Source: Ustulina deusta (taxonomy: Eukaryota > Ascomycota > Sordariomycetes > Xylariales > Xylariaceae). From it: DNA of 64,000 nucleotides. The position numbers and the translations under genes were made by a program. The stretch lies in the NCBI GenBank assembly GCA_023159155.1, contig JAJNNX010000032.1:310001-374000 (forward strand), given 5' to 3'. Numbering within the stretch: position 1 is the stretch's first letter; each line of letters starts with the position of its first letter. Below are positions 51,907 through 57,524 of the stretch, piece by piece. A model generated the notes under the pieces. It was not told the DNA's origin. It saw only the letters and a program-made list of their open reading frames with translations, and searched no databases.

Positions 51907-53283
51907 ATGACTTCACTGCCCAAGACCTACAAGGCCGCCGTGATTGTGAAGTCCAACGAACCGGTCGTCATCAAGGAGCTCGAATTGAAGGAGCCCGGCC
52001 CCGGCCAGGTTCTCGTCAAGGTCCTCGCCTGCGGCGTGTGCCACACGGATCTCTTCGAGGCCAGCGGCGCTTTCGGCGACCTCTGGCCTCGCGTCCCGGG
52101 CCACGAAATCGTCGGCGACGTCGTGAGCGTTGGCGAGAGGGTGACCAGAGTCGCCAACGGCGACAGGGTCGGCGGGCCATGGCACGGAGGCGAGTCTATT
52201 TCCCGTTCAACGCGCCACTCGTTTTCTTCCCTGCCCACGAGAAGAAGAAGCACACGGAAAAACTAACGCTCTGGGTCGTCGTGACTAGGCCACGATCACT
52301 CGTGCCGTGCTTGCGCCCGCGGCCAGTTCCAGATGTGCGATGATGTCAAGATCAACGGCATCAGCTTCGACGGCGGCTACGCCGAGTACGTGCTGGTTAG
52401 TTCCCTGAAGTCTTTTCTATCCCCTTTTGGCAATTTTTGGCCTCAGTTGTTCCTGCATGCTCCCGAGACATTGGTCAAATTTTGCTCTTTATGGTAATTA
52501 CTGACTCCAGTGGTTAAACAGCTGCGCGCGGAAGCCGTGGTCCGCGTGCCCAAGGACCTCGACCCCGCCGAGGCCGCGCCGCTCCTCTGCGCCGGCGTGA
52601 CCACGTTCAACGCCATGCGCAAGCAGCACGTGGAGCAAGGCAACCGTGAGTTACCTACCGCTTAGAGTCATTTCCTCCCCTTTCTAGTAACTTGAGCTCC
52701 CCGAAATGTCTCAGGAGTATGTTTCGGGAGCTCCAGAACTGCTTAAAAGAGTAATTACTGACCCCAGCGGGTGATAGTGGTGGCGATCCAGGGGCTCGGA
52801 GGACTCGGCCACCTGGCGGTGCAATACGCCAACAAGATGGGCTACCGCACCGTGGCCATCAGCTCGGGGAGCGGCAAGGAGGACTTCGCGCGCAGGCTCG
52901 GCGCGCACGAGTACATCGACGCGAGCAAGGACGACCCCATCAAGAAGCTCCTAGCGATGGGGGGCGCCGCCATGATCCTCTCGACGGCCCCGAACCCGAA
53001 GGCCATCAGCCCCTTGATCGGGGGCCTCCAGGCCGGCGGCAAACTGGTCGTGCTGGCCCCGGTCGGCCCCGTCGAGTTCGACACGGGCGTCCTGGTGATG
53101 AAGGGAGCCACGGTGGCGGGATGGCCCAGCGGCCACGCGCTCGATTCCGAAGAAGCCATCCTCTTCTCGCAGACCCACGGCGTCAAGTGCCTGATCGAGA
53201 AGTTCCCGCTCGACGAGGCGGCCAAGGCGATGGAGCACTGCGCTTCCGGCAAAGCGAGGTTCAGGGGCGTGCTGGTCATGTAA
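51907..53283 (+). CDS. zinc-dependent alcohol dehydrogenase (MDR family)
   Basis: Exons 51907-52189, 52289-52395, 52522-52645 and 52778-53283 give 339 aa. Catalytic-zinc ligands appear as CGVCHTD (Cys45) and GHE (His66/Glu67), with the third Cys in PLLCAGVT. The structural-zinc loop is HDHSCRACARGQFQMC, in which one of the usual four Cys is absent. The NAD-binding motif is AIQGLGGLGHLA. It should interconvert a primary or secondary alcohol and its carbonyl. The first intron is GC-AG (G|GCGAGT). The third intron, ending in TGATAG, is homologous to an intron of the GH43 gene on the other strand, and the second looks like an older relative. Together these mark introner-like elements inside this gene. 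Confidence 0.9.
52396..52521 (+). mobile_element. probable older introner-like element (ADH intron 2)
   Basis: This intron starts GTTAGTTCCCTGAAGTC and has a pyrimidine-rich TTTTCTATCCCC, a CATGCTCCCGAGACATT block and a 3' part GGTAATTACTGACTCCAG. Each recalls the two better-preserved copies, although the middle is diverged. Confidence 0.5.
52646..52777 (+). mobile_element. introner-like element (ADH intron 3)
   Basis: A 132-nt spliceosomal intron homologous along its whole length to the GH43 intron at 56746-56884. Shared blocks in order are CTTTCTAGTAACTTGAG, ATGTCTCAGGAGTATGTT, CTGCTTAAAA, AATTACTGAC and the acceptor CGGGTGATAG versus CGGTAATAG. The second GGGAGC/GAGCTCC region can pair with the first half, as expected of structured introners. 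Confidence 0.85.
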
Positions 53284-54353
53284 AGGAAAAATTGAGGAGT
53301 AATGTATTTTCGCACGACGTATCGCAATTGGGACACTTGGCGCCCGTGAAGATTGGGCATGAAAAAAATATATATATTTTGGAAGCAAGTTAAAATTTAG
53401 TTGGATACCTATAGTTTGGCTATGACGATTATACGTGTTTTCATCTCAAGCATGGTTATCTCTCCAGGCATTCATGGCAGGGCACCCCGGACATACACTG
53501 CATAATTCCTCTTGCTCAGATTAGACCCAAGAAGATAGATTGTCTACAAATCGGTATTTAGAACCACAATTTTCTATAGAGTGCACAACTTTCTTTCCGC
53601 AACATGCCCGCTTGGTTCTATATGTGCCCCTCATCCTTCGATATCCGATCGGTGTAAAGTTCTAGCGAAGACGTAAATAACTCATCATAACCAAAACTGC
53701 AAATTTTTATAAGACATCACGGACTATTTGGGGAGGATAGGTTCTGTATGAATAATTAATGAACGAAGGCATGGTGATGGCATGAACAGGATGATAGACC
53801 CGGAATACATTTATGTATCATCGATTCCTCCTCTCACCATTCTCACCATCGGCCACCTCTTGAGTGCGGGGGGACTTCCCCAAACTTCCCCGCAGCGCTT
53901 ACTGTCGAAGCTCATTTGTGGGTAGGGTATTAAACGCCGGACGAGGGCGCCGCTTCTCGACAGATCTCCACCATGCGTCATCCTCCTTTTGTCTTGTCCA
54001 TTCAAGAAACACGTTCTCATCGCGACTTCCGTCCACATGAAACATGGCTTCGAATTTCGGCCATGGGACGAGGTGGTTGTGCCTGCAATGGTCGTCCGAG
54101 GAGACGAGAATGCCGCTTACTTGTAAACGGCTCGCAGCCGATGTTTCTTTTTTGAGTTTCTTCTTCAGGGGACAGAATAGTCCAACGAGCTAATCATTTA
54201 GGAGAGAAGAAAGAAAAAAAAAAGGTTCAAGTGTGCTAAGGTCTTTTCTATTCCAACGTATTGTGAAAACGATCTCCTCTCATCAAATCGAAGCACGAGA
54301 CACACAGCAAAGGTACGCGACTACCTATTTTCGTTTTATCAATCCAATGGACC
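53284..54353. other. intergenic region
   Basis: No supported gene. A 75-codon minus frame at 53811-54038 lacks any domain. An A-run lies at about 54213-54223. Confidence 0.5.
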
Positions 54354-55046
54354 ATGGCCAAGACACCTCGCGCGTATAAAACCAGGGGTCCCAGTCCCCC
54401 CCGCCTCTTAACAGCCCTCCTCCTCCTCTCCGCTACTCCGACGATCTCCTCCCAACCAACAACAACAACAACACCGAGCATCGCAACAGCGCCCCTCGCC
54501 CTCCGAAGCTCCTCGTCCCCGGAATTCACAGCCGAGACGGCCTTCGCCTCGGCGATCCTGCACAGCACCAACGTCTACCGCGCCGCGCACAACGCCTCCG
54601 ACGTGCGCTGGAACACGACGCTGGCGTCCTTCGCGGTCGCGTACCTCGCCAGCGCCGCGGTGGGCGTCGGCTGCGCGTTCGCGCACTCGGGCGGGCCCTA
54701 CGGCGAGAACCTCGCGCTGGGCTTCGCCAACGCCTCGGCGGCCGTCGCGGCGTGGGGCGACGAGGGCCGCTCCTACGACTACGCGCGGCCCGCATTCGCC
54801 GAGGCCACGGGCCACTTCACCCAGCTCGTGTGGAAGGCGACCGCGGCCGTCGGGTGCGGGCGGCGCCTGTGCGATGGCAAGGGGTGGTATCTGGTTTGCG
54901 AGTATTGGCCGCGCGGGAACATCATCGGCGCCTTCCGGGACCAGGTCGGTCGGCCGGTGGACTCGGCTGCGGGGGCTGGGCGCGCTGCATGCCGCGGTTG
55001 CTTCGCTGCGGCGGGTGTGGCTCTTTGGATGGTGATGCTCTTGTGA
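54354..55046 (+). CDS. secreted CAP-superfamily (PR-1/SCP-like) protein
   Basis: A single exon of 230 aa. A basic N-terminus leads to a hydrophobic signal core (RLLTALLLLSATPTISS). The CAP domain covers about 60-200 with ILHSTNVYRAAHNA, the CAP1 motif GHFTQLVWKATAAVGCG and the CAP2 motif YLVCEYWPRGN. Four cysteines suit the conserved disulphides. The C-terminus ends in a hydrophobic tail (FAAAGVALWMVMLL) after a small-residue region, suggesting a GPI anchor. CAP proteins bind sterols and lipids in the extracellular space and often act at host or cell-wall interfaces. The DNA is very GC-rich. Confidence 0.87.
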   Translation: MAKTPRAYKTRGPSPPRLLTALLLLSATPTISSQPTTTTTPSIATAPLALRSSSSPEFTAETAFASAILHSTNVYRAAHNASDVRWNTTLASFAVAYLASAAVGVGCAFAHSGGPYGENLALGFANASAAVAAWGDEGRSYDYARPAFAEATGHFTQLVWKATAAVGCGRRLCDGKGWYLVCEYWPRGNIIGAFRDQVGRPVDSAAGAGRAACRGCFAAAGVALWMVMLL

Positions 55047-55703
55047 TGTCCCAGCCGGCGAGGTTGGCTTGCCTTTGGGCGCATTCGGCAATAATGCGGA
55101 ATTGGTTGGGTTCGGAGTATGGCTTGGGCATTTATACAATACGATGGCGATGCTCGACGGAAGGGAACGTCCCGTATGTAACTAAATGGGTTTGGCGTTC
55201 GGACAGGGCGGTATTCGCCCAACTAAGGTAAAGACCAATTATACGTGCATACTCTTACGTGTCGTGTAAGTCTCCTCGGCACTCTTCTTATCGGGCTAGT
55301 CGCATTTCTTTACCAACTCTGCGGCAATCCTCTTGATTTGCGTTTTGAAAGAGGTTTTTTTTTCACGTCTCTAGATTAGATTAGGATATAGACCCATGTC
55401 ATATTTACTTGGGTGAGTGTCTGTTACCCCGGCGTTAGCTCGCGGCACAGCACGTCATTTGAGAGTATGAGCGCTCGATTTCCGTGCGTTTTATGCTTTA
55501 CGACGACGGTTGGGACATGCGCTCAGCGAGCCTACATGATGTATGTGTGTGGTAAGAGGGCGATAGCGTGAGTTGAGTAGAAGTCTAGAGTGGATTTTGT
55601 CTTTTTTCTTTTTTTCTTCCAGCCCTTCGTGGACATTCGTCCATCATTCGCCTCTAATAGTACGTAGCTGGGAATCAAAATCATAGAATAATAGTATCTC
55701 TAA
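55047..55703. other. intergenic between convergent genes
   Basis: The 3' flanks of the CAP gene and the GH43 gene, with T-rich runs near 55599-55617. Nothing else recognised. Confidence 0.5.
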
Positions 55704-57524
55704 TTATTTTCCCTGGTTCTCCTGTGTTAACTCCTTCTGCCCAGCCGGCACGGCGTGGGGTCCATTCTCAGCCAGAGGGAAGTTAGGCGTGCCATCCGCA
55801 TTCCACGTAAACTTCTGTATTCTGGCGGTCCGGTAAATGTCGCCGGGCGGGTCTGGCGTCGTCTGCGCATGATACACGATGTAATCCTCCGATCCGTCGG
55901 GCGATGTCGTGAAGGAGGCGTGACCGGTGCCGTAGATTCCCGTAACCGTATTCTGTTGAAGAACCTGAAGTCAGTAATTGGCACATATATAGCAACGAGT
56001 GCTAAGGTTTTCGGGGAGTTAGAGGAGTAACAGGTATAGAAAACACCTGACGAGGCAACTTATGCTCCCAAGACAGATCACGTGAGGGCATCAGAGACTC
56101 CGGTGAACTGACCTGATGGAATATGCACTGCCAAGTGTGGAGTTAGTTATCATCATTTTAAGCGTAAGTCTGGAAATATGAAACGTTCTCAAGATATAGC
56201 TTTGGCCTGGACAGCAGCCCTTGCACTCTTGAAAATGACCGGAGCAAGGAAATGAGTTCGAGAATTACTTACGCCATCTTTGTGTTTCCTCCAGGAATGG
56301 TATTGCATGGGGTCGTTCCCGACGAGCTCCAGCATGCCGAGGCAGTAGAATGGCGTGTTGACTCGTGCCGCGGAATATATCACGAAGTTTTGTCCCGTCT
56401 TGGGGTTTGTGAGCTGCTGGGGTCCTTCGTTGGTTGCAAGCCGGATCGGTCTCCCGTACTAAATATTATTATATCAGCTTCCGTTAAGTCTTTTAATTTT
56501 TGTACCGACTTCAAATGTACTAACGGGTACTTGTTCCCACGGTTGGTCTGGCACACTGATCATGCGGCGCTCAAACAAGGTCGAGTTGACGGTCCAAGGA
56601 TCCGACATCTTGGTGATGCAGAGATTTGCCGGCCATGCTGAGTACTTGTCTTGCCAGCAAGAGTATATGTGATACAATTGATTCTCATGCTGGAAATAGG
56701 TCCCATCAATCGCGAATTGATCGTATGTGTCTACCATAGGCTTCACTATTACCGCTGGAGTCAGTAATTGCTTTTTAAGCAGCTATGGAGCTCTCGAAAC
56801 ATGCTCCCGGAACATACTCCTGAGACATTTTGGAAGCTCTCAAGTTACTAGAAAGGGAAGAAAATGATTTCAGCGGTAACGCACATGAATAACTGGCGGT
56901 CCATGGATCCGGTCCGTCAGCTGCCAAGACAAACATGCGATGGTTGATGGCCTGTATATAGGTGTGAGTCAAGTTATCCATAAAAGCGACATAGCCATTT
57001 AGAGTCGCCCCTGGCCCTATGGCGCTGTTGAGAATACAACTTACCGGGCAATTGAAGGGACACATAGCCTCTAGTAACGGTGATGGATTATCGCCGTCTG
57101 AAGTGGCGGTGAATATCGCATACCAAGACCCTGAGATATTGTGTATTTCTGGTGCCCAAAGACTTGTAGACCAAGGATCTCCGGAAAGGGGGTCTGGGTT
57201 GAAGATGACGCGAGACTCTGCAAGGTCCCAATTGTCGGTGAGATACCTTGACCGCTTGAGGGTCACATTGGAATCGGTTGTGTACGTGAACAGATACCAG
57301 CTCTCGCCGCTCGGGCCATTGTATTTGGTCATGAAAGGATCACCAACATTAAGAGTCATGACGGGATTCGAGTATGTGGCATTGGTGGTCTTGTTCGTAC
57401 CGACGAAAGCAGGGTCCCATCCTGGCGACGTACCCTGGTTGGGATCGAAGACCTGAGCAACAACTGCAGCAATTCCTATGCAGGATGCCAGGGAAATTAT
57501 CTCTCGAAGCTTAAAGCCTGTCAT
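55704..57524 (-). CDS. secreted GH43-family glycosidase (arabinofuranosidase/arabinanase-like)
   Basis: Six exons: 57524-57045, 56951-56885, 56745-56525, 56458-56273, 56127-56113 and 55964-55704, giving 409 aa with a 15-nt micro-exon. Residues 1-23 are a signal peptide ending near VVAQ. Five-bladed propeller motifs include VGDPFMTKYNG, LWAPEIHN, QFAIDGTYFQ (the pKa-modulating Asp) and NEGPQQL (the general-acid Glu). The last blade reads GIYGTGHASFTTSPDG then YIVYHAQTTPDPPGDIYR. These fit GH43 alpha-L-arabinofuranosidase-like enzymes acting on plant-wall arabinan or arabinoxylan. Subfamily and specificity are unproven. Intron 2 is an introner-like element homologous to ADH intron 3. The micro-exon is set by GTAAGT/GTCAGT donors and frame, so it is a less certain detail. 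Confidence 0.85.
56746..56884 (-). mobile_element. introner-like element (GH43 intron 2)
   Basis: A 139-nt intron, donor GTGCGTTACC and acceptor GTAATAG, matching ADH intron 3 from end to end on the opposite strand of an unrelated gene. Relative to the ADH copy it carries an extra block containing GCATGTTTCGAGAG, which complements the first half and suggests a hairpin. Confidence 0.85.

Follow-up and report, generated by a model that had tools for sequence, protein, structure and literature searches.

How new spliceosomal introns originate, and why fungal introners occur without the usual marks of DNA transposition, has long been asked, and a few described systems are the closest guides. In the passages of these papers on which we draw, here and below, the ascomycete introner families of Gozashti et al. 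have neither terminal inverted repeats (TIRs) nor target site duplications (TSDs) (PMC9860276), and the repeated introns of other Xylariales stand at random sites between unbiased bordering exons and are argued to pass through an excised-intron RNA intermediate (PMC8469720, PMC12403724). For introner-like elements (ILEs), a preference for AG/GY is ascribed to van der Burgt (PMC8469720). Here we analyse a 64,000-nucleotide stretch of DNA from Ustulina deusta, a member of Xylariaceae (the window; positions 310,001 to 374,000 of contig JAJNNX010000032.1), in which a zinc alcohol dehydrogenase (ADH) gene and a GH43-type glycosidase gene carry introns that recur throughout the genome. These introns are almost certainly fungal introner-like elements of at least four families, which we call A to D. 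What moves is the intron as such, its ends being the G of GT and the G of AG, and the unexpected feature is target choice, each family having its own motif in the adjoining exon. Such family-specific motifs contrast with the unbiased sites that the cited passages report for related fungi, and they offer a handle on intron birth.

A sequence-only reading of the window had proposed that ADH intron 3 (52646..52777, + strand) and GH43 intron 2 (56746..56884, - strand) are one homologous intron, gained separately by two unrelated genes. Both introns were placed correctly, and they align from GT to AG. In the assembly that holds the window (56.06 Mb, 123 contigs), a search with ADH intron 3 gave 30 matches on many contigs, one of which is GH43 intron 2 (E = 7.7e-21). 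Both introns are copies of a single element of ~140 bp, which defines family A. ADH intron 3 is a mutated copy with 86% identity to the family consensus and |TGG as its right exon flank, and GH43 intron 2 has 92% identity and is followed by |TGA. With a consensus-like copy (L010) as query, 33 matches at 28 places were obtained, and 20 of these span bases 1-140 of 140, ending exactly at the splice sites. The family A consensus reads GTGAGTTACCGCTGGAGTCA ... TGACTCCAGCGGTTATAG, and the median identity of 29 copies to this consensus is 96%.

Family B was found via a repeat-pattern search, in which a variant of the near-terminal repeat described below appeared in ADH intron 2 (52396..52521, + strand; 126 bp, GTTAGTTCCCTGAAGTC...GACTCCAGTGGTTAAACAG; left exon flank CTG|). 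This intron gave 19 genome matches, namely itself, 16 at 94-98% identity covering 124-129 bases, and two diverged relatives (L078, L079) at 76-80%, which are perhaps old copies. Close examination of 17 copies of family B showed 98-100% identity to their consensus. The 3' motif AATTACTGACTCCAG, with at most one mismatch, occurs 89 times in the genome versus 2 times for the reversed control, and reading of 16 unassigned motif places led to the recognition of families C and D (mostly ~155-165 bp). One-copy searches returned 19 matches for family C and 32 for family D.

After merging of the search hits, family A occupies 28 places, B 19, C 19 and D 31, which makes 97, and beyond these there are 4 related places (101 in total) and 14 motif-only sites. 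All place counts are lower bounds, and one of the 101 places, GH43 intron 5, was entered by hand after inspection. The motif-only sites and two further sequences (L084, L056) have the 3' motif or the repeat and match the four families poorly; they probably represent more, older families. The 101 places are separate from our 101-row copy list, whose rows are not all distinct places. From this list, 90 copies were examined closely (A 29, B 17, C 18, D 23 and the D-like L128-L130) and 11 rows were excluded: L054, which is a chance hit, and L110, L109, L111, L126, L056, L084, L083, L078, L079 and L107, for unclear borders, strong divergence or truncation. TG follows L056, L084 and L107, which would have strengthened the signature reported below, and the other excluded rows have no clear border or family.

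The spliced products of the host genes differ from one another, and independent insertion of the same element, as had been proposed, best accounts for its dispersal over 28 places for family A and 97 for the four families, in different genes. Instead, the similarity might be due to chance, or to gene conversion or duplication between the two neighbours, which lie 4 kb from each other at a locus with 4 of the 101 places. However, 26 of the 28 family A places lie beyond the window, and the exon flanks have no similarity beyond 3 bases, so that this explanation has practically no probability left. The dispersed copies rule out both chance similarity and local gene conversion, and one outcome that would have undone the sequence-only reading, namely no further copies together with local conversion, is excluded by them. 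Some places lie close together: 3 pairs are closer than 1 kb versus 0.18 expected (2 of them in the window) and 7 pairs are closer than 5 kb versus 0.9 expected (6 of them from the window), under a uniform placement that ignores gene density and with one window place added after inspection.

Element borders, reading frames and homologues all bear on the intron identity of these copies. The element starts with GT in 90 of 90 copies and ends with AG in 89. In 77 of the 90, seamless joining in the sense direction leaves 25 or more open codons to either side of the junction; the number falls to 50 and 53 after removal of one or two bases, and to 49 in the antisense direction. Alignments with homologues are stronger evidence for the junctions than these frame counts. 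The spliced ADH product is gapless at both introner positions against 12 database homologues, one of them from U. deusta, and its best homologue is a U. deusta record of the same length with 99% identity. The spliced product at L025, a protein of contig C31, is 100% identical to a U. deusta protein over 241 residues, across the junction; this junction is gapless in 16 aligned proteins, including bacterial homologues that are continuous at the junction position and come from organisms without spliceosomal introns. For GH43, the spliced product is a continuous 405-residue frame, and the junction is ungapped in the best solved match (3k1u), while in the two matches that come next 2 residues are inserted 3-4 residues ahead of the junction. 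Gapless junctions were also obtained for a kelch-type protein (L005; 17 aligned) and, among the matches listed, for an aldehyde dehydrogenase (4 of 4) and a ketosynthase (3 of 3). When 10 spliced fragments were compared with Pfam, 8 matched a family, with the junction inside the matched stretch, and 2 matched none. Comparison of the L027 product with GH92-type homologues gave one weak match starting at the junction, which is uninformative.

Several observations speak against taking every copy as a correctly spliced intron of a coding gene. The frame controls are far from zero, with the excess still clear, and for 13 of the 90 copies fewer than 25 codons stay open to one side of the joint, where a coding location is not supported. 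One family B copy (L071), otherwise 98% identical to its family, has the 3' end AAACTG and not AAACAG, that is TG for AG; with the usual acceptor lost, its host gene may be spliced elsewhere or may be damaged. For a SRAP protein (L103), one residue right after the junction is missing from the alignment with the best solved homologue, a gap that the second lacks. Moreover, relatives were compared at the protein level, at which the presence of an intron is not visible.

The exon bases that adjoin these introns depend on the family. TG follows the intron in 28 of 29 family A copies, and in 20 of them the flank is TGG. For family B the flank is TR|, with T in position -2 and a purine in position -1, in 14 of 17 copies. 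In family C, T follows in 17 of 18 copies and TG in 12 of 18, and A stands before the intron in 12 of 18, whereas family D has G at -1 in 23 of 23 copies and A at -2 in 14 of 23. The corresponding binomial chances, uncorrected for ~384 looks, are 1e-32 for TG in A, 4e-8 for T at -2 in B, 2e-10 for T at +1 in C and 6e-15 for G at -1 in D. In addition, the families act as controls for one another: B and D have no preference for T or TG downstream, and A has little preference upstream. Exceptions that count against the motifs are L015 of family A, after which GT stands in place of TG, and L128-L130, which have A instead of G before the intron; the latter three copies were kept apart from D in the flank counts (23) and taken with D in the junction-repeat counts (26).

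Protein alignments suggest that at two sites of family A the motif is very probably older than the intron. The downstream TGG encodes an invariant tryptophan (Trp), shared by all 16 aligned proteins at L025, bacteria included, and by all 17 at L005, where all proteins but the query are from one homologue list. Because this Trp is invariant and TGG is its sole codon, the TGG would have preceded the intron at both sites. Other sites give no such order: the aldehyde dehydrogenase and the SRAP protein have a variable residue there, and for a pectinase-like protein the single relevant structure has phenylalanine for Trp.

The motifs might have been left by selection for splicing instead of being chosen at insertion. 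Family D lends itself to this explanation, as its donor is mostly GTYAGT with always G, and mostly AG, upstream, and pairing with U1 would favour G or AG before such a donor. But T at -2 in family B and TG at +1,+2 in families A and C have no counterpart in any splice consensus that we know of, and the family A donor, GTGAGT, is already strong. Selection for splicing could account for family D, but hardly for the other three, and as a general explanation of the motifs it is quite improbable. Another possibility is template switching or break-repair copying, in which the intron is copied with, or guided by, a few bases of the old exon annealed at the new place. Flank similarity is indeed mostly one-sided (downstream in A, upstream in B and D, downstream and more weakly upstream in C), as such copying would leave it. 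However, this similarity ends after 2-3 bases, and the codons of the invariant Trp at L025 and L005 were hardly dragged along with the intron, although microhomology could still have been used there. We consider template switching improbable.

At the consensus level, all four families have inverted repeats that are near-terminal rather than terminal, with CTGGAGTC as the 5' core and GACTCCAG as the 3' core. In family A, the 5' repeat is ACCGCTGGAGTCA, whose reverse complement recurs close to the other end, which makes 13 contiguous complementary bases; the 3' repeat is placed between the presumed branch point and the acceptor. In the GH43 copy of family A, the 5' repeat GTTACCGCTG (56871..56880, - strand) pairs in the predicted fold with the 3' repeat CAGCGGTAAT (56748..56757, - strand), and the latter is located between the acceptor and CTGAC, which we presume to be the branch point. 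The sequence-only reading had suggested a hairpin, and fold predictions agree, with z-scores of -6.4 for L010, -3.0 for the ADH copy and -2.45 for the GH43 copy. Single representatives of families B and D gave z = -3.35 and z = -2.6. Families A and B are thus predicted to form strong hairpins, and the whole family A intron would be one long hairpin. The family C representative, with z = -0.29, folds no better than shuffles, which counts against the hairpin intermediate proposed below.

Five family A copies (L024-L027, L108) are 94-103 bp long and lack the hairpin middle. Their deletions have nearly the same end points, at GAGAGCTCC direct repeats, and a 94-base form keeps the terminal stem and folds with z = -4.5. 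For L024, L027 and L108, the closest relative is a full-length copy. From these sequences, the short form may be either a mobile deleted subfamily or the result of recurrent independent deletion, and the latter fits as well.

The sequence-only reading had suggested looking for target duplications at the insertion sites: none is visible in A and C, there is little in B, and the repeat of 1-2 nt in D (G or AG) is indistinguishable from an ordinary AG|G site. Flank matches of 1-4 nt show no significant excess over shuffled pairings, a control that is blind to a constant motif, and the smallest P, for 3 nt in family B, is 0.117. In the 12 nt next to the junctions, shared 5-mers, for which no probability was computed, number 4 in A versus 1.8 expected, 0 versus 2.0 in B, 1 versus 1.3 in C and 2 versus 1.3 in D. 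Repeats in register with the junction are absent in 24 of 29 family A and 15 of 18 family C copies, and in family B 9 of 17 copies have 1 nt and 3 of 17 have 2-3 nt.

Two other readings of the junctions were considered. A direct repeat, GTG...GTG in A or AGT...AGT in C, needs the loss of one G from the exon, and the gapless homologues argue against such a loss where checked. A [D1,2] spliceosomal twin intron (stwintron), in which the G before GT would be intronic and the donor would contain a second, nested intron, is excluded for A, B and C as families, since they have no constant G before GT (4 of 29, 8 of 17 and 3 of 18). In family D, with its constant G, removal of one junction base shortens the frame to fewer than 20 codons in 6 of the 23 copies that otherwise have at least 25, and the stwintron reading is unlikely for those 6 copies by frame.

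On balance, we give somewhat better than even credence to the view that these introners, of at least four families, spread by way of an RNA intermediate. Excised intron RNA is favoured because the GT-AG borders are exact, the sense orientation fits, the joints are seamless and the stem joins the two ends. According to this proposal, the excised intron would be held as a hairpin by its near-terminal stem and would be put into the DNA of transcribed genes, either by reverse splicing into DNA or by ligation into a break and then DNA copying. The sequence of each family would bias the two or three bases accepted at the cut. Several points tell against an RNA intermediate. The site motif is not predicted by plain reverse splicing. 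Inverted repeats together with flank specificity are also expected from a DNA transposase. Junction repeats of at least 2 nt in register are present in 17 of 26 family D copies, and a short target duplication would give the same. Finally, the missing antisense and intergenic copies could reflect selection.

The strongest rival is a site-specific DNA transposon without TSDs, of the Spy kind. The introners would then be non-autonomous elements similar to miniature inverted-repeat transposable elements (MITEs), each with a family-specific site as in Spy, at whose ends splice sites have evolved. The near-terminal inverted repeats, with the 13 complementary bases of the family A consensus, would suit such elements, and so would the family-specific flanks, which in family C are partly palindromic (CA|TG), and the short junction repeat in D; Spy elements themselves, site-specific and TSD-less, are a precedent (PMC4482050). 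However, the transposase family DDE_Tnp_4 (PF13359) has 0 matches in the genome, other transposase groups not being part of this search. All 23 exact matches of the family A repeat pattern are inside intron copies, and the sense reading fits best. When up to 2 mismatches were allowed, the family A repeat gave 167 matches in total versus 164 for the control, no clear excess, so that the location in introns holds for the exact repeats, and the exact pattern with both repeats 60-90 bases apart gave two matches, both of them known copies. No autonomous element with family A termini was seen among the exact repeat matches, a search in which the termini of B, C and D were not included. We therefore regard a transposon origin as rather unlikely.

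Within the proposal of an RNA intermediate, the introns may carry their own target specificity, a suggestion that we make tentatively and with considerable doubt. Sequence in or near the ends of each family would direct the spliced intron, without duplication, to positions beside |TGG, TR|, CA|TG or AG|. If true, spliceosomal introns would have their own counterpart of group II intron retrohoming, in which the element encodes a short target code. Any mechanism must account for the insertion of A before TG and of B after TR. Near-identical copies, exact boundaries and a sharp family motif make the question of intron birth testable. Since family B copies are so close to their consensus, empty and filled alleles of this family may still segregate between strains.

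Besides the two introns compared by the sequence-only reading, the locus holds two others of the same kind (ADH intron 2 and GH43 intron 5) and probably a third (GH43 intron 4), and the inverted repeats and non-random flanks are likewise additions to it. The ADH gene (51907..53283, + strand; 339 aa) is supported by its spliced frame and homologues, and two of its three introns are introners. The GH43 gene (55704..57524, - strand; 405 aa) has five introns and is supported by its continuous spliced frame and by solved GH43 enzymes that match across the introner junction. GH43 intron 5 (55953..56112, - strand; left exon flank CAG|) is a family D introner, with z = 16.9 against the family D consensus, and its 3' motif is also within the genome-wide motif list. 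GH43 intron 4 (56128..56272, - strand), which is followed by |TG, is probably a decayed copy of family A or C, on weaker evidence: its alignment z versus shuffles is 7.1 to A and 5.4 to C, and three other ADH and GH43 introns tested reach z <= 3.3 to the families. To judge from these alignments, the eight introns of the two genes include four clear introners and probably a fifth.

ADH intron 1 (52190-52288) appears to be a GC-AG intron (GCGAGT...CTAG), and in a comparison that covered families A, C and D, not B, it showed no similarity to them (z <= 1.4). Between the ADH and GH43 genes lies a single-exon gene (54354-55046), whose product, judged by eye from a motif, may be a CAP/SCP-like secreted protein. 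The introner 3' motif was not found within this gene by the motif search.

Several ILE families per genome, as found here, were reportedly described by van der Burgt in 2012. The ILEs of Dothideomycetes, as presented in the cited parts of Collemare 2015 (PMC4457414), resemble the U. deusta introns in being near-identical canonical introns in unrelated genes, in occurring two per gene and in degenerating over time. They belong to a different class of fungi, and the U. deusta families differ from them by strong family-specific flanks and a common inverted-repeat core. With regard to the AG/GY preference attributed to ILEs in the passage cited above, only family D is similar. The introners of Gozashti et al. 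2022 (PMC9860276) are alike in that repeated introns behave as mobile elements, with inverted repeats in many families; unlike the ascomycete families in the cited part of that paper, the U. deusta families do have inverted repeats. The main text does not name Ustulina, Kretzschmaria or Xylaria, and U. deusta or a relative may be among its 175 genomes, which are listed in supplementary tables. Spy transposons, in the sections used (PMC4482050), likewise make no target duplication and insert at a preferred sequence. They differ in their target, AAATTT, in having their own DDE transposase and in not being introns, and our flank analysis found no insertion between AAA and TTT.

In the open literature, subscription papers, preprints and supplements being outside the search, we found no paper on introners in Ustulina or Kretzschmaria deusta. 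Closest in taxonomy are the sister (stw)introns and cropped introns of Hypoxylaceae and Xylariaceae (Fekete 2021, PMC8469720; Fekete 2025, PMC12403724), which like ours are from Xylariales; Ustulina, deusta and Kretzschmaria are not named in the main texts of these two papers. In the parts cited, these introns share with the U. deusta introners seamless insertion, no TSD and near-terminal inverted repeats, and those of PMC12403724 also have the 3' repeat between branch point and acceptor. They are mostly nested [D1,2] stwintrons, whereas the U. deusta introns are read as single canonical introns. Finally, unlike the sites of the Fekete introns as portrayed in these passages, the insertion sites in U. 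deusta are strongly biased.

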